From: Candidatus Raymondbacteria bacterium RIFOXYA2_FULL_49_16
GTDB taxonomy: Bacteria > Fibrobacterota > OXYB2-FULL-49-7 > XYB2-FULL-49-35
Direction: 5' to 3'
Length of the DNA: 10,218 nt
NCBI GenBank assembly: GCA_001789205.1
Contig: MFYT01000044.1
Span: 1 to 10,218, forward strand
Made by a program: the position numbers and the translations under genes. The notes beneath the pieces were generated by a model. The model ran no database searches and had not been told where the DNA came from. It worked only from the letters and a program-made list of their open reading frames with translations. Below are positions 1 through 9,147 of the stretch, piece after piece. The first letter of the stretch is position 1. Each line of letters opens with the position of its first letter.

Positions 1-3000
1 GTCATTTCCCATGAATTCGCGCTGAAACTGCCGTAGGTCGTCAGTGAAAAATAGGTCTCGGGACCGCTAAACGACGTGCCGTTCCAGTAATTCGTCGAGT
101 CCATGCAGTAGATCGACACTTTGATATCTGTGGGAAAACCCGTATAGGCACCGGTCAGCTTGTTCGGATTGGGATACATGGATATGGCGCCTGTTGGCGT
201 TGAATGGCTCGCCGTGGGCCCCGTGTAATCAAAGTAATCAATGTTCACGGTATCTTCGATAAATCCGTTCTCGATACCTCGTGACTTTATCGTGTAGTTT
301 GTCCCGCTCTCCCACGCAGGCATGCTCGTGGTCATGGTCCAGGTACCTGCACTGAAACTGCCATAACTGCCCAGCGACAACCAATTTTCCGTGGGAACGC
401 TGAAGTCAGACCCGGACCAGTAAAAACTCCCATCATATATGGTTACCTCAATATCTGACGGCGATCCCTGGTATGTACCATGAATCTCGTTGGGGCTGGG
501 ATAGTTTGTTATAGACCCCAGTGGCGAGGTCACGTCTGTCACGGTTCCCCAGTTGATGTTGTTGCCCGAGTTGGTGCTGTTGGTCACCGTGCCCCTGCTC
601 GCGCTTCCCGAGGCGTCGCTGTGGCCGATGGTCGCGTAATCGGCCGTAAGGGTGCCTGTCGCATTGATATACCATGTTGATGTGGGATTAATATTCAGCA
701 GATTGCTGTTCTGGCCCGACAATGACGCATTGCCTGCAACCGTGATGGTGATGCCATCAAGTCCTGAGATGGTCGATGCCGTGCCATTAGTAATGGTGAA
801 GTCCCCGCTGGCAACAGTGGTAATGTCCAGACCTGCGAAATTGAGCATACCAGCTGAATTAATAAAACTATTCGCCGTGAGATCGTTGGTGGACAGCGTA
901 AGGCCGCCGGCACCGGAATGGACAATGGCTGGGTGTGTTGTGGCTGCCTTTGGAATAAACGACTGTGCGCCGCTTGCGGTCAGTTCGAGTGTTCCGGTTC
1001 CGGCGATAAGGCTGGGTAGTGCGCTGAAATCAACGTCCATTGCGGCTGTTTTCAGGGTAGCAGAACCAAAATTAAGACCTCCGCCTGTCAGGGCAAGACC
1101 CATGCCCACGCTGTCTGTCAGGCCTACACCGAGATTGAATGTACCCGTATTAATAATAAGCGAATCTGCTGTCAACCCGTTCGTTTGTACCGTGGTACCG
1201 CCTGCGCCTGCCTGAATGAGCTTCGGAATAACATACCCTGCCTTGGGAGTGAAAGTCTGCGCGCTGGCACCCATAAAACGGAGGGAACCGCTGGCATTGA
1301 TAGAGGACAAGTTTGAAAAATCAGCTGAGCTGCCGGTTATGGTAAGTGCACCACCGGCTGTGGTAATGGTCAGACTACCCGCTCCAGAAAGGTTCGCTAC
1401 TGTATCGCTGTATGCGCCGGTCTCGAACGAACCTGAGGTTATGGTCAAATCCTTTGCCTTAAATCCGCGCGTGTTACAGATGACCGACCCGGTATTAGAC
1501 TTTGTGATATTGGGAAACAGCATGTTTGCGCGCGGAGTAAATGTCTGCGCGCCAGATCCGGAAAATTCGAGCGTTCCCGTGCCCGCAATCACATTGATAT
1601 TGTTGAAATCCGTGGTACCGGTTGATTGCAGCGTCGATGACCCAAAATCCACTGTCGCGCCCGAATTGCCCATAATACTCATCACCTGATGGGTACGACC
1701 CGCTCCCAGGCCAAGTACGCCGCTGTTGATTGTGATCAATCCAGCTATAAGATCGTTAGTGGAAAGCGTCACTGAAGCTATCGAGTCTTTCTGCAGCGTA
1801 ATGTTCGGATGAGTGGCCCCTGCCTTTGGCGTAAAACTCTGCAGAGCAGATCCGATAAATTTGAGAGTACCCGTACCTGCATTGACAGCGGAGAGTCCGC
1901 TCAAATCAGCATTGCCAGTCACATTGAGCGTGGTGGAATTGAAATCAAGCGTGCCCATAGCGCCCATGCTCATTATCGCATCAACTGTATCCGCTGATGT
2001 GGTTCCCAGATTAATGACCCCACTTTTAATAATCAATATTCCCGCCTTGAGCGCATTGGATTGCACGGTGACCGAATTGGATGATTTGTTAATAATGATA
2101 CTGGGGTGCTTCACGTTCATCTTGGGCGTGAAATTCTGCGCAGCTGTTCCCGTGAATTCAAGAAAACCTGTATTGATGTTCATGCCAATGAGAGACGTGA
2201 ATCCGTTTGCCGTGGCTGCGGTCTGGAGCGTACAAAGCGTACCGAAATTGATAAAGCCGCTTGAAAGCCCGATCATCTGACCCACGCTGTCACGCGTGTT
2301 CACACCAAGGTCAAGATATCCCATGACCGTCAGCTTGTTCGTCTTGAAGCCATTGTACATGACCCGTACCGAACAGGTCGCGGGAATATAGATGGCCGGA
2401 AGGAGCGGGCCCGCAGGCGGGATCAGCTTTTTCATCCCAGCGCCTGCCTGGAACTTGACGGAATCCGTACCCACCATGTTCAAGGCACCGCCCGAACGGA
2501 AGTCAGCGCCGCCGTTCAGCGCGAGATTGAACCCCTTGAAGTAGAATGTTCCCGTATACCCCGGTGTGAAAGTGATTGACTTTACCGTGACATTGTTCGA
2601 AAGGGAACATGCCTTGGTGCCGGCCTTAAAAATAACCGAATCGCCGCTCGAAGGCATGACATCCGTACTCCAGTTTGCGCCTGTGTTCCAGAAACCGTCT
2701 GCGCCGCCGCCGTCCCATTCAACGCCTGCGGGATTCAGTTCCTTGTGCTTTGCGGGCTGGACCACGCCCATCTTCGCATACGTCGTTGTAATATCCGAGG
2801 TTAAAAGTCCTATCATGAGACTGTCGTTGGCAACAAGGTTTGCCACATTGGCCCTGAGAATGTAATTGGTGGGTGCTGATACGTTAAATGACGATGAAAA
2901 AGTGACGGTACCTGTTGTGCCCGTAATATTCACACTTCCGGAACCGCCAACAGTGGTTGCTTCGCCAGCATCGATGATACCATTGCTGTTCGCGTCAATG

Positions 3001-4352
3001 AACAGCGCGGCGCCGGTCATGTCGCCCGTGGCAATGCCGCTGACATTTGAAAGATTTACAACAAGCTGGGTGACTGAAGGGGTGCCGGTACCCGGATAGA
3101 GAAGGAACGCAAAGAGGCCGGCACCGGTTTCTGCTCCGTTGGCCCCAAACGCATTGGGCTTTTGGCCTGCAACGTGGTTAGTAAGCGCAAGGTACTGGAA
3201 TGCGTAATATTCGTCAGCGCCAATGTCCCAGGCAGGTCCTTGCGGCCGCAACGAATCATCAATATCCCAGTTGAACAGGCCCGCGAACGAAACACCCTGG
3301 TCCTTTGCCGCGCTAAATCCAAGAATGTGCAGGTCGCGCGTGGCTGTTGCCGTGTCAATAAAGCCGATCTGACTGAAATCCACGCACAAGTTTCCGGGAA
3401 CAGCTGACAGCGAATTGTCGCCGCAGATATTGTACATATCGTCGTTGTCTATGGCAGTAGTGCCGTCGTCCGCAACGTCCTTGAGTTTGTTGCCCCAGAA
3501 AATATTGTTATTCACGCGGGTGATGATCCCGGATAAAATGCCCCAGCCTGTATCGCATAAAGCGACTGTATTGTTTATAAAGGTGAAATTTCCCGAACCC
3601 GTTCCTCCAACGCCGTACTTATGGCCGTAGATAATGCAGTTAAAGACTGTGTCGTTGCTGGCGCCGTTCAAATAGACGGCTTTGGCGTCAGTATTGCCGT
3701 CGCGAATAAGGCATCCGCTGATCTTGCAATTGGAGGCTGACAAATTCAGGCCGTTTGAACTCAGGTTCCGGATTTCAAGCCCTTCCAGTTTGATATTCGG
3801 TATAGTTATATTCCACGAGGCCGCATTGCCGTTTATCACAACACCTGTGTTTGCCTTGCCAATATGGCGATTTCCCGGTGCGGCTTTGATCGTGATGGTA
3901 TGGGTCTGATCCGTGCTCCAGCCGGTAATGCCTGCAACCATCAGTTCCGCGTCCTTGTAGAGCATTGCCACTTCCGCCTGGTTGTCAGTGATCAGGTCGC
4001 GGCTTTGCGCGCCCCACGCGCTCAAACCTGAAAATTTGCGCATGATAGTGTATGCGGCACCGCTCTGGGTAGAACCTGCAAGACTGCGCAGAACAATACG
4101 GGTTTCAGACGTTACAGAGTCGATCATATAGCCGGTGGCGCCAATAGCGATCGAATCGCCTGGTCCGCGGTTGGTAGTGATCCATGCTGTGCCCGTACCT
4201 GTGACCACGGGAGACCCGCTGGTTGTGGCAACAGTGCCGGTCGTATAATTGGCCGCACTGCCGACCGATACGCTGCGCACAGTTTGCGCAAAAATCGGAC
4301 CAGCGGCAAGCGCCAGACACGCAGCAAGGGCGAACTTCATCGTATTTTTCAT
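1..4352 (-). CDS. Giant secreted repeat protein, adhesin-like (3' end outside window)
   Basis: Probable surface or secreted adhesin. The frame stays open for 1450 codons and leaves the window without a stop, so the C-terminus and any anchoring or sorting signal are unseen. Layout by residue: signal peptide 1-22 (cut after IFA, before QT); small beta domain about 35-100; right-handed parallel beta-helix about 150-380, rich in Asn/Gly/Ser/Ile turns and closing with DIGADEY (376-382), a common end of such folds; a beta-sandwich-like stretch with a calcium-loop-like DANSNGIIDAGE (453-464); a WDGGG...WNTGANW module near 545-576; six repeats of 97-100 residues, about 630-1210; then two Ig-like repeats, 1273-1375 and 1379 onward. 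The start ATG overlaps the upstream regulator's stop (ATGA). AAAGG lies 8 nt upstream of it. ATG at 4340 is an alternative start. Adhesion is inferred from architecture; a degradative beta-helix enzyme is possible, but no catalytic motif was seen. Confidence 0.85.
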   Translation of the reverse strand, partial: MKNTMKFALAACLALAAGPIFAQTVRSVSVGSAANYTTGTVATTSGSPVVTGTGTAWITTNRGPGDSIAIGATGYMIDSVTSETRIVLRSLAGSTQSGAAYTIMRKFSGLSAWGAQSRDLITDNQAEVAMLYKDAELMVAGITGWSTDQTHTITIKAAPGNRHIGKANTGVVINGNAASWNITIPNIKLEGLEIRNLSSNGLNLSASNCKISGCLIRDGNTDAKAVYLNGASNDTVFNCIIYGHKYGVGGTGSGNFTFINNTVALCDTGWGILSGIITRVNNNIFWGNKLKDVADDGTTAIDNDDMYNICGDNSLSAVPGNLCVDFSQIGFIDTATATRDLHILGFSAAKDQGVSFAGLFNWDIDDSLRPQGPAWDIGADEYYAFQYLALTNHVAGQKPNAFGANGAETGAGLFAFLLYPGTGTPSVTQLVVNLSNVSGIATGDMTGAALFIDANSNGIIDAGEATTVGGSGSVNITGTTGTVTFSSSFNVSAPTNYILRANVANLVANDSLMIGLLTSDITTTYAKMGVVQPAKHKELNPAGVEWDGGGADGFWNTGANWSTDVMPSSGDSVIFKAGTKACSLSNNVTVKSITFTPGYTGTFYFKGFNLALNGGADFRSGGALNMVGTDSVKFQAGAGMKKLIPPAGPLLPAIYIPATCSVRVMYNGFKTNKLTVMGYLDLGVNTRDSVGQMIGLSSGFINFGTLCTLQTAATANGFTSLIGMNINTGFLEFTGTAAQNFTPKMNVKHPSIIINKSSNSVTVQSNALKAGILIIKSGVINLGTTSADTVDAIMSMGAMGTLDFNSTTLNVTGNADLSGLSAVNAGTGTLKFIGSALQSFTPKAGATHPNITLQKDSIASVTLSTNDLIAGLITINSGVLGLGAGRTHQVMSIMGNSGATVDFGSSTLQSTGTTDFNNINVIAGTGTLEFSGSGAQTFTPRANMLFPNITKSNTGSVICNTRGFKAKDLTITSGSFETGAYSDTVANLSGAGSLTITTAGGALTITGSSADFSNLSSINASGSLRFMGASAQTFTPKAGYVIPKLIQAGAGGTTVQTNGLTADSLIINTGTFNLGVGLTDSVGMGLALTGGGLNFGSATLKTAAMDVDFSALPSLIAGTGTLELTASGAQSFIPKAATTHPAIVHSGAGGLTLSTNDLTANSFINSAGMLNFAGLDITTVASGDFTITNGTASTISGLDGITITVAGNASLSGQNSNLLNINPTSTWYINATGTLTADYATIGHSDASGSASRGTVTNSTNSGNNINWGTVTDVTSPLGSITNYPSPNEIHGTYQGSPSDIEVTIYDGSFYWSGSDFSVPTENWLSLGSYGSFSAGTWTMTTSMPAWESGTNYTIKSRGIENGFIEDTVNIDYFDYTGPTASHSTPTGAISMYPNPNKLTGAYTGFPTDIKVSIYCMDSTNYWNGTSFSGPETYFSLTTYGSFSANSWEM
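720..2470 (-). repeat. Six tandem protein repeats of about 97-100 residues inside the giant protein
   Basis: Each unit follows the pattern G-T-L-x-F-x-G-x-x-A-Q-x-F-x-P-K, then HPxI, a TxxNxL-like segment, and a short D-S-V-x-x-L or similar. The AQ(N/S/T)F(T/I)P motifs fall near 2140, 1848, 1546, 1258 and 965, spaced 288-302 nt; a degenerate first copy (KKLIPP) lies near 2440. The repeats are well diverged at DNA level, which suggests an old duplication rather than recent slippage. This pattern is typical of stalk-like beta modules in long adhesins. Unit borders are approximate. Confidence 0.75.
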
Positions 4353-4924
4353 ATGTCCTGCCTTTGTTTATTTTCGTCAGACATTGCCGGAACCGTCTCA
4401 TCGGCAAACCGCGAACCCACACGCACCTCGTCTTCAGAAATGATCGTGTTCACAATGGTCCCTTCGAGCGGGCTCCTCAGAAATCCTACTTCGTCCGAGA
4501 CCCAAACTTTTACATTATGGTATTTATTCAGGATTGAACGCAGGGTATCTTGCGGAAAATCGAGCCCCCGCAATAAAACCGCGAACCCGTGCATGCTCAC
4601 GTCGACCAATGTGCCGCCGCATACCAGCCGGGCATCGGGAATGCCGTCCATGAGTTCGACCCGGGCTGTATAGGCAAGGCCAATGCGCGGATTTATCCGG
4701 CGGTCGCGTGCGCGTTGTGCGGCGAGTATTTTCTCGGATTCAAAGTGCGAGAGCCTGCGGCCCCGTATATTCACAAAACGCAGCACCTCTTCACGCTGGA
4801 ACCGGCGGTGTCCGCCCAGGGTTTTAAACGCGGGCAGTAGCCCCTTCCGCTCCCAGTATTGGACGGTCGAAGGCGCAACAGCGCACAATTCTGCGACTTC
4901 TTTAATTGTCAATATCTCGTTCAT
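4349..4924 (-). CDS. MerR-type HTH fused to PilZ domain: putative c-di-GMP-responsive transcription regulator
   Basis: 191 aa. Residues 4-52 form a MerR/BldC-like winged helix (IKEVAELCAVAPSTVQYWER, then the wing KTLGGHRRF). Residues about 53-75 are a charged linker. Residues 76-175 look like a PilZ domain carrying both c-di-GMP signatures: RxxxR as R76-INP-R80 and DxSxxG as D108-V-S110-MH-G113. PilZ proteins with these motifs normally bind c-di-GMP, and MerR-family proteins normally bind palindromes between -35 and -10, so a one-component c-di-GMP sensor-regulator is the simplest reading. Start choice: GGAG (4932-4935 on the complement) sits 7 nt upstream of the ATG. The stop TGA overlaps the next gene's ATG by 4 nt, pointing to co-transcription and translational coupling with the giant adhesin-like gene. 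The domain calls are strong; ligand binding and targets are inferred. Confidence 0.9.
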   Translation of the reverse strand: MNEILTIKEVAELCAVAPSTVQYWERKGLLPAFKTLGGHRRFQREEVLRFVNIRGRRLSHFESEKILAAQRARDRRINPRIGLAYTARVELMDGIPDARLVCGGTLVDVSMHGFAVLLRGLDFPQDTLRSILNKYHNVKVWVSDEVGFLRSPLEGTIVNTIISEDEVRVGSRFADETVPAMSDENKQRQDI

Positions 4925-4991
4925 GGTGCTTCTCCGTTTGAATTCAGGATGAAATAGATACGGGTTGGTTTTTGATGAACATGTACGTATA

Positions 4992-5020
4992 ATTTTATAT
5001 TAATTAATATACAAAGTCAA
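4992..5020 (-). promoter_or_regulatory. Promoter of the MerR-PilZ/adhesin operon
   Basis: On the minus strand, TTGACT (5020-5015) and TAAAAT (4997-4992) are separated by exactly 17 nt, a near-consensus sigma-70 pair. The predicted transcript start is near 4985, giving a leader of about 60 nt before the ATG at 4924. The surrounding 287-nt divergent intergenic region (4925-5211) is strongly AT-rich and has no gene. Confidence 0.6.
4996..5011. promoter_or_regulatory. Perfect 16-nt palindrome in the promoter spacer, candidate MerR-PilZ operator
   Basis: TATATTAATTAATATA is a perfect palindrome. It occupies nearly all of the spacer between the -35 and -10 boxes of the minus-strand promoter, which is where MerR-family regulators bind. 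It is pure A/T in an A/T-rich stretch, so chance is a real alternative. The related but imperfect ATATTAATTATAT at 5190-5202, next to nfo, could be a second site. Confidence 0.4.
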
Positions 5021-5173
5021 CAACCAAATCACTCAAAACGACAATACTATTATTTATCTTATTTGATATCATTAGTTTATGTTGTTTGTTAAAATCATAT
5101 AATTTATTAAATTTCATGTAATGCATTATATGTGTGCCATAAATAAATATAGCAGAATCAACAATTCAAATCC

Positions 5174-5203
5174 GTGATCAGGATCACAAATATTAATTAT
5201 ATT
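5174..5203 (+). promoter_or_regulatory. Putative nfo promoter with inverted repeat GTGATC-AG-GATCAC
   Basis: A perfect 6-bp inverted repeat with a 2-nt centre lies at 5174-5187. A -10-like TATATT lies at 5198-5203, only 8 nt before the nfo ATG. The -35 at 17-nt spacing (TGATCA) is poor and falls inside the inverted repeat, as expected if an activator or repressor binds there. No Shine-Dalgarno lies between the -10 and the ATG, so the transcript may be leaderless. Confidence 0.35.
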
Positions 5204-5211
5204 GTTGTTTT

Positions 5212-6140: not shown

Positions 6141-7409
6141 ATGACCCAATACCAGGCAGCGAAGAAAAAAATCATTACCCCTGAAATGAAATGCGTGGCA
6201 AAGAACGAATACCTGAAGCCGGAATTTGTGCGCAACGAAATTGCCAAGGGCAGACTCATCATTACGGCAAACAAAAAACACCGGAACCTTATACCCATTG
6301 GCATTGGCCGGGCAGTGCGTTGCAAAATAAACTCAAATATCGGCACATCAGCGCTTTCGTCAGACATACAAAAAGAGGTCGAAAAGCTGCGCGTGTCCGT
6401 GAAGTATGGGGCTGATACGGTCATGGACCTCTCCACTGGGGGAAATATCCCCGCCATACGCAAAGCCATTCTCAGAAACGCGAAAGTCCCTGTGGGCACA
6501 GTGCCTATTTACGAGACACTTGCGGACATGAAAGACCCCATGAACATGACGCCTGCGGCAATCCTTAAAACCATAGCTTCTCAAGCGGACCAAGGTGTTG
6601 ATTTTATGACTATACACTGCGGCCTGCTCCGAAGACACCTGCCATTGGCCTGCAAACGCCTGACAAGGATTGTAAGCAGGGGCGGATCCATTATGGCCCG
6701 ATGGATGGCCTATCACAACAAGGAAAATCCCTTCTTTACCCACTTTGACACCATACTCGATATCTGCAAGGAATACGACGTATCCCTGTCCCTGGGCGAC
6801 GGCCTGCGGCCCGGAAGCCTTGCCGATGCCAGCGATAAAGCACAATTCGCTGAACTAAAAGTGCTAGGCGAACTGACCCTGCGCGCATGGGACAAGGGAG
6901 TGCAGGTCATGATCGAAGGCCCGGGCCACGTGCCATTTGACCAGATTGAAATGAACATGAAACTGCAGGAAAAACTCTGCCACGGCGCGCCCTTCTATGT
7001 GCTTGGCCCCCTAGTCACGGACATTGCGCCCGGCTATGACCACATTACCTCTGCCATTGGCGCCACCATGGCGGGCTTTTGCGGCGCTGCCATGCTCTGC
7101 TATGTGACCCCGCGCGAACACCTGGGCCTGCCAGACGCCGAAGACGTGCGTCAAGGAATCATTGCCTATAAAATCGCGGCACACGCGGTGGACGTGGCCC
7201 TGCACCGGCCCCACGCTCGCGAACGTGACGACGCAATGTCGCGGGCGCGCTATGCCTTTGACTGGGAGAAACAGTTCAAACTCGCCATGGATCCGGAACG
7301 GGCGCGGGAATTCTACAAAAAAAGCAGGACGGCGAAACAGGAAAAAGACGACTATTGCACCATGTGCGGACCGAATTTCTGCGCAATGAAAAACAGCGGA
7401 AGAATCTGA
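6141..7409 (+). CDS. thiC: Phosphomethylpyrimidine synthase ThiC
   Basis: Radical-SAM enzyme that rearranges aminoimidazole ribotide to HMP-phosphate, the pyrimidine half of thiamine. 422 aa, the length of the short form found in many anaerobes and lacking the N-terminal extension of the E. coli enzyme. Visible signatures: [18 protein letters not shown] (residues 53-70), [14 protein letters not shown] (88-101), [12 protein letters not shown] (219-230), EGPGHVP (259-265), [19 protein letters not shown] (289-307) and the C-terminal cluster motif CTMCGPNFC (C406, C409, C414), the CX2CX4C of this family. GAGG precedes the ATG by 5 nt. It stands alone, without other thiamine genes. The paralogue BzaF/BzaA/B (benzimidazole synthesis) is the main alternative; lacking bza/cob neighbours, ThiC is preferred. 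Confidence 0.92.
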
Positions 7410-8028: not shown

Positions 8029-9147
8029 ATAGTAATCAATTGGCAAGAAGAATTGGCCAACGCCATCATGGCATGCAGAACTGCACAGCTGGGCGGCCAT
8101 GTATACCAGTGCGATTCCTGTGGCCACGAGCACATATCATACAACTCGTGCAGAAACAGGCATTGCCCGCAGTGCCAGGCCCTTGCCCGTTCAGCATGGG
8201 TGCAGGCCAGGATGGACGATCTTCTGCCTGTACCATATTTCCACGCGGTCTTCACCATCCCGCCTGCTCTGAACCCCTTTGCCTTGCGGAACAAAGAAGC
8301 CTTCTATGCGCTGATGTTCAAAGCCGTGTCCGAAACCCTGCTTGAGCTTGCAAAGAACAAAAAACGGCTGGGTGCTGTCATTGGCTTCATCGCCATCCTG
8401 CACACCTGGGGACAGAACCTCATGGACCATCCGCACATACACTGCGTGGTGCCGGGTGGCGGCATTCAAGAGACCCGCTGGATACACTGTAGACGGAAGT
8501 TCCTCTTCCCCATACGGGTCTTGAGCGCTCTCTTCAAGGGCAAATTAATGGCCTACTTCCGGGAAGCTGTCACAAACAACGACATCCAGTTCCACGGAGC
8601 CCTTGCAGCACACAAAGACCCCATTGCCTTCCAGTCCCTGATTGATGACCTATACGCGCAGGATTGGGTCATCTATGTCAAACCTCCCTTTGCCGGGCCG
8701 CAGGCTGTGCTCAAATACCTGGGCAGCTACACTCATCGTATTGCCATCTCGAACAGGAGGATCATCTCCATAAAGGATGGGATGGTCTCATTCACCTGGA
8801 AGGACTATGCCCATGGCAATGTTCGAAAGGTCATGGCCTTTCCCATTTCCGAATTCATCAGGCGCTTCTTGCTCCATGTTGTACCAAAGGGGTTTGTGCG
8901 CATACGGCACTATGGATTCCTAGGAAACAGGACCAGGAAAACTTCGATTGCCGCATGCAGGAAGGCGTTGGGAGTTCTGAGACCGCCTGAGGAAAAACGC
9001 CAGCCCAGGTCATGGGTGGACCTCTGCAAACAGCTGACTGGTAATGATCCGACACTGTGCCCCATGTGCGGCACAGGACACCTGAGACCGTTCAGGGAGA
9101 TTACAGCATCGCCACCAGGGTATGAAACGGTCAGACATGTAGCGTAG
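8029..9147 (+). mobile_element. IS91-family insertion sequence remnant or element (ends unresolved)
   Basis: Defined by the transposase at 8053-9147. IS91 elements move by rolling-circle replication and have no terminal inverted repeats or target duplication, so the ends cannot be read with confidence. Candidate end structures are CCGGT-T-ACCGG at 8010-8020 on the left and the palindrome AAAAGCTTTT at 9161-9170 on the right. The in-frame stop at 8026 limits the coding part on the left. Confidence 0.6.
8053..9147 (+). CDS. IS91-family Y2 (HUH) transposase, apparently short at its N-terminus
   Basis: 364 aa if read from TTG 8053; ATG at 8068 is another possible start. Zinc-ribbon domain: C20, C23, C33, H37/C38 and C41 in YQCDSCGHEH...NSCRNRHCPQC. 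HUH motif H128-I-H130 in HPHIHCVVPGGG. Paired tyrosines Y222 and Y226 in YLGSYTHRIAISNRR, the Y2 nucleophiles of rolling-circle transposases. A further CPMCG lies at 336-340. Family members usually carry roughly 25-40 more residues before the CRTAxLGGH motif. Here that motif starts at residue 8, and an in-frame TGA lies at 8026, with INWQEELANAI between. The protein keeps all catalytic residues but may be N-terminally truncated and inactive. The upstream frames show no missing piece, so a deletion is more likely than a frameshift. Confidence 0.92.
   Translation: MANAIMACRTAQLGGHVYQCDSCGHEHISYNSCRNRHCPQCQALARSAWVQARMDDLLPVPYFHAVFTIPPALNPFALRNKEAFYALMFKAVSETLLELAKNKKRLGAVIGFIAILHTWGQNLMDHPHIHCVVPGGGIQETRWIHCRRKFLFPIRVLSALFKGKLMAYFREAVTNNDIQFHGALAAHKDPIAFQSLIDDLYAQDWVIYVKPPFAGPQAVLKYLGSYTHRIAISNRRIISIKDGMVSFTWKDYAHGNVRKVMAFPISEFIRRFLLHVVPKGFVRIRHYGFLGNRTRKTSIAACRKALGVLRPPEEKRQPRSWVDLCKQLTGNDPTLCPMCGTGHLRPFREITASPPGYETVRHVA

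Follow-up and report, generated by a model that had tools for sequence, protein, structure and literature searches.

A fused regulator gene ahead of a giant gene

The window, by which we mean the whole stretch of DNA analysed, is an entire contig of 10,218 bases (C44; MFYT01000044.1) from a 5.43 Mb genome in 112 contigs (G000), the completeness of which is rated 100%. On its minus strand lies a gene with an ATG start (4349..4924) that encodes a regulator of 191 aa, in which a MerR/BldC-type wHTH (residues 4-54; 4763..4915, minus strand) is followed by a linker helix (residues 62-73) and a PilZ domain (residues 74-177; 4394..4705, minus strand). The gene that follows (3..4352, minus strand) encodes a giant exported beta-rich protein of 1450 codons that is still open at the contig end. 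The stop codon of the regulator overlaps the giant start by 4 bp as ATGA (4349..4352, minus strand), with an SD-like AGGA immediately 5'. A preliminary description of this DNA had proposed both a MerR/BldC HTH fused to PilZ at 4349-4924 and a stop/start overlap as ATGA; the overlap is confirmed at 4352-4349, and the fusion, the PilZ part of which is borderline in Pfam, is borne out by predicted structure and is conserved together with its motifs.

The regulator is separated from a divergent nfo-like gene by an intergenic region of 287 bp with 25% GC (4925..5211). A sigma-70-like TTGACT-17-TAAAAT in this region (5020-4992, minus strand) matches at 10 of 12 positions and is a weak candidate for the promoter of the regulator, shuffled sequences yielding 1.9 sites that score at least 9. 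A search upstream for direct repeats of the BldC kind gave no more than AT-rich inverted repeats and a single weak direct one, an unconvincing result. Riboswitch control was rejected on finding no Rfam match anywhere in the window. A CRP/Rex-like palindrome (5173..5188; TGTGATCCTGATCACG on the minus strand) has one mismatch to TGTGA-N6-TCACA and is 23 bp away from the nfo-like gene, to which it may belong. Such palindromes are present 5' of both MerR-PilZ copies in the source genome, that of the second copy, on contig C49, being perfect (L015 9898-9913; G000:C49:31897-31912). Perfect sites number 12 genome-wide vs 2 for the motif reversed as a control. T9SS or giant genes follow several of these sites (C69, C56), and a Rex-like gene is found next to one. 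The remainder of the window holds thiC (6141-7409), with no TPP riboswitch at the Rfam gathering score, and an IS91-type transposase (Y2_Tnp with zinc-binding domain; 8053-9147) close to the contig end.

A new combination of known domains

The HTH of the regulator scores 48.3 bits against Pfam MerR and 47.3 bits against HTH_17, both far over cut-off, and the closest NCBIfam model is HTH_BldC, at 55.8 bits and thus under its cut-off of 77. In an AlphaFold2 model of the regulator (pLDDT 78, from an alignment of only seven sequences) residues 2-54 align to BldC over 53 residues at 1.7 A (Z 9.7; VIA-align). BldC of Streptomyces, the nearest wHTH, differs from classical MerR proteins in having no coiled coil and forms head-to-tail multimers on direct repeats (PMC5859096). 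Likewise, only a low-confidence helix of 12 residues (62-73) follows the wHTH in the window protein, with no coiled-coil dimerisation helix, and the GGHRR wing and the BldC-equivalent interface residues W31, T42, L43 and G44 are retained, the matching of residue numbers between the two proteins being our own. Judged by these residues, the regulator may oligomerise as BldC does. It differs from BldC, a protein of 68 aa without effector domain (PMC5859096), in carrying PilZ and in the position of the base-reading Arg30, taken by Tyr, Ser or Leu in MerR-PilZ proteins and by Tyr23 in the window protein. The regulator should therefore read a different site from BldC and, since the reading of AATTxxxx(C) by BldC depends on the Arg30 that is replaced here, no DNA site was identified. 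Proteins with a BldC/HTH_17 domain and a receiver, found in the source genome (C73) and in one Pseudomonadota genome, also place an N-terminal wHTH module ahead of a signal-input domain, but have a receiver where the window protein has PilZ. HTH-receiver fusions at L016 7868-8449 and L069 1111-1698 share the same BldC-like HTH, a mobile module before varied input domains.

The PilZ domain (PF07238) is borderline when the protein is scanned singly, residues 74-177 scoring 21.9 bits where the cut-off is 22.5 (hmmscan), and reaches 22.9 bits with its genome neighbours in a genome-wide search. PilZ was matched by six of the seven homologues at E<=0.1, the best at 7e-9. The closest structural matches of the predicted domain are BcsA, VCA0042, YcgR and the PilZ of MrkH; residues 76-181 align with BcsA in complex with c-di-GMP (Z 9.8, 100 residues, 3.1 A; VIA-align) and residues 76-179 with VCA0042 in complex with c-di-GMP (Z 8.4, 91 residues, 3.0 A). 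Alignment of the model in this way shows a PilZ fold and says nothing on binding. On the strength of the genome-wide score, the matches among homologues and the predicted fold, the domain is considered genuine. Its two motifs stand exactly where they had been placed in the preliminary description: RxxxR is found as R76-INP-R80 at the start of the domain and DxSxxG as D108-VSMH-G113, the D, S and G of the latter being invariant in all seven homologues. For the synthesis of c-di-GMP the source genome has 10 GGDEF genes.

Two characterised regulators invite comparison. MrkH of Klebsiella pneumoniae is the closest functional analogue, a PilZ protein that acts as c-di-GMP-dependent activator of an attachment operon (type 3 fimbriae), but it has no HTH (PMC3161979), and neither a MerR/BldC domain nor a giant protein is part of that system. 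To judge from the title of a crystal-structure paper cited in a 2025 review, its DNA-binding part is PilZ-like (PMC12564702). BrlR of Pseudomonas aeruginosa is a wHTH regulator of the MerR type and responds to c-di-GMP; in line with the preliminary description, it binds the ligand and has no PilZ domain, the c-di-GMP sitting on the DNA-binding domain of a protein with a long helical linker and a multidrug-binding C-terminus (PMC6028453). According to the same 2025 review, most c-di-GMP transcription factors have an HTH, PilZ-type MrkH uses a different DNA-binding part, and PilZ joined to other domains is a promising place to look for new receptors (PMC12564702). That the preliminary description knew of no characterised MerR-PilZ one-component system paired with an adhesin agrees with the literature searched, most subscription journals lying outside it, in which no MerR-PilZ or HTH-PilZ protein is named. 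The regulator is thus a new fusion of known parts, an architecture that may already be listed in domain databases.

Distribution of MerR-PilZ genes and their giant neighbours

All seven MerR-PilZ proteins found belong to the Fibrobacterota. A search of 167 genomes of the phylum with a three-row model matched six genomes, five of which contained a full-length MerR-PilZ; the source genome has a paralogue on contig C49, and a further homologue, L026, was added from a separate genome collection. The other genomes searched are related to the source genome at phylum level only. The fusion was absent from 398 Pseudomonadota, 43 genomes of one other phylum, plasmids and viral contigs, and the matches outside Fibrobacterota were HTH-only or HTH-receiver proteins. 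The homologues form two well-separated groups, one of the window protein and L026 and another of C49, G028, G020, G032 and G069; branches are long, and branching order inside the groups is not settled.

The preliminary description had proposed that the genes next to such homologues be inspected, and large exported proteins do recur. On C49 a giant of more than 5294 aa, dominated by fn3 and Ig-like repeats, starts 31 bp after the MerR-PilZ gene, and in G020, from another family, an ORF of more than 1530 aa that is open at the contig end starts 23 bp after it. In G028 a truncated signal-peptide stub of 117 aa begins 17 bp after the MerR-PilZ gene and is followed by unrelated mobile-element genes; it resembles a giant gene that an insertion or an assembly join has cut short. 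This stub (L017 11331-11684) precedes a recombinase and phage-like genes. The expectation failed clearly in two of the seven: the tally is three clear giant neighbours, one probable (G028), two negative and one off the contig. The ATGA overlap is not kept at the other linked loci, where gaps are 17-31 bp. Within the source genome a giant is the next gene for both MerR-PilZ genes but for none of the remaining six PilZ genes (Fisher p 0.036), and the chance of finding two giant neighbours out of two is about 8e-5 if a generous 40 giants among some 4400 genes are assumed, both numbers being estimates. The pairing of MerR-PilZ and giant genes is well beyond chance. The genes just upstream of the C49 unit (L015 6631-7886, 8431-9813) encode an ECF-type sigma factor, a protein that is probably its anti-sigma partner, and a lipoprotein-like product.

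The window giant has a signal-peptide-like N-terminus and at least 1450 codons, its C-terminus lying beyond the contig end. Residues 24-545 are predicted to form a right-handed beta-helix and then Ig/cohesin-like strands (pLDDT 81), and residues 546-1268 constitute a homologous beta-repeat module common to the three linked giants (pairwise E of 4e-84, 3e-49 and 3e-44). Elsewhere in the source genome the latter module occurs mainly in a giant on C55, which has no MerR-PilZ before it. The beta-helix module is found in about a dozen source-genome giants without MerR-PilZ, and most other giants there have a different module and no regulator. A giant secreted repeat protein with the looks of an adhesin had been predicted here; the signal-peptide-like start, the beta-rich character and the length held good, and no adhesin domain was recognised. 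No Pfam domain exceeds its cut-off in the window giant, choice-of-anchor Q and NosD being found below threshold only, and the repeat module gave nothing meaningful when searched against PDB sequences. The label 'adhesin-like' is reasonable as a tentative one. As the source genome encodes a SprA translocon (C61; 588.6 bits), as its T9SS sorting domains number at least 150, and as relatives of the window giant, such as one on C57, end in a sorting-domain-like tail, type IX export of the giant is likely. The source genome encodes a family of some 16 giant exported proteins, reaching ~5000 aa and with beta-helix modules in common, on contigs that include C23, C75, C53, C55, C96, C57, C106, C109, C69 and C89. 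Many giants run into contig ends because their repeats probably broke the assembly.

A candidate c-di-GMP switch and its alternatives

We propose that the MerR-PilZ protein is a one-component regulator that responds to c-di-GMP and controls the operon which it forms with the giant surface protein, and estimate the probability of this reading at about one half. At high c-di-GMP the ligand would occupy the RxxxR/DxSxxG face of PilZ, and the bound domain would reorient the linker and alter the assembly of the BldC-like wHTH on DNA. The target would be the AT-rich region of its own promoter (4925-5211), an autoregulation by which the regulator would be made together with the giant to which it is translationally coupled. 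The giant would most likely leave the cell through the Sec pathway and the type IX system and be used to attach to surfaces or to polysaccharides. That the effect is to activate and not to repress is a guess by analogy with MrkH and BrlR. If true, this would connect c-di-GMP to a surface protein by very short wiring, two adjacent genes providing the sensor, the DNA-binding domain and the effector, and would open c-di-GMP signalling in Fibrobacterota, a phylum without such a study in the literature searched. More tentatively, the proteins could represent a hitherto undescribed class of BldC-like wHTH-PilZ regulators, perhaps confined to Fibrobacterota, that form c-di-GMP-gated head-to-tail assemblies on DNA and are dedicated in separate clades to switching giants of a single module.

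An alternative that differs from this proposal in output only, and overlaps with it, retains the regulator as described and makes the giant a carbohydrate-active or scaffold protein, c-di-GMP then switching polysaccharide use or matrix building. Residues 24-545 have weak matches to NosD, a xylosidase, tailspikes/polysaccharide lyases and cohesins, the low TM-scores of which indicate a fold class and not a function. The C49 partner, however, consists mostly of fn3 and Ig-like repeats, and a catalytic domain was recognised in none of the three linked giants, so that such an output is possible but doubtful.

The protein might also be a genuine c-di-GMP-responsive regulator acting mainly on other genes, with the giant merely co-expressed in the operon. 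BldC-type proteins bind many promoters (PMC5859096), and two homologues are not beside giants: L026, by sequence the closest to the window protein, adjoins a convergent unrelated gene though its motifs are intact, and G032 has a Nif3-like gene downstream. This is rather unlikely in view of a pairing that occurs in two separate clades and follows one giant module.

A third account denies c-di-GMP a role and regards PilZ as a module for interaction or dimerisation, with other input, for example from a CRP- or Rex-like regulator acting upstream. The borderline PilZ score and the palindromes 5' of both source-genome copies are consistent with it, as is RxxxR, which is degenerate or lost in G032 and G069. 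We consider it improbable, as neither RxxxR nor DxSxxG has lost a motif residue in the window protein, L026 or any of the four giant-linked members. The association of RxxxR loss with a missing giant neighbour is at most suggestive, with six loci only (Fisher p 0.33). That adjacency is a coincidence in a genome with about 16 contigs of related giants is highly improbable; the pairing is not attributed to chance because it holds for two of two copies in this genome and once more, same module included, in another family, the shared module being the more telling.

The two homologues in which RxxxR is lost have a STAS-like neighbour in common. STAS and receiver/kinase genes lie upstream of the MerR-PilZ gene in G032, and a STAS gene lies upstream in G069, where the contig ends 413 bp downstream. 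In both genomes the STAS-like gene directly precedes the RxxxR-less MerR-PilZ (L034 8411-8737; L032 1267-1590), and the two are possibly a repurposed signalling pair.
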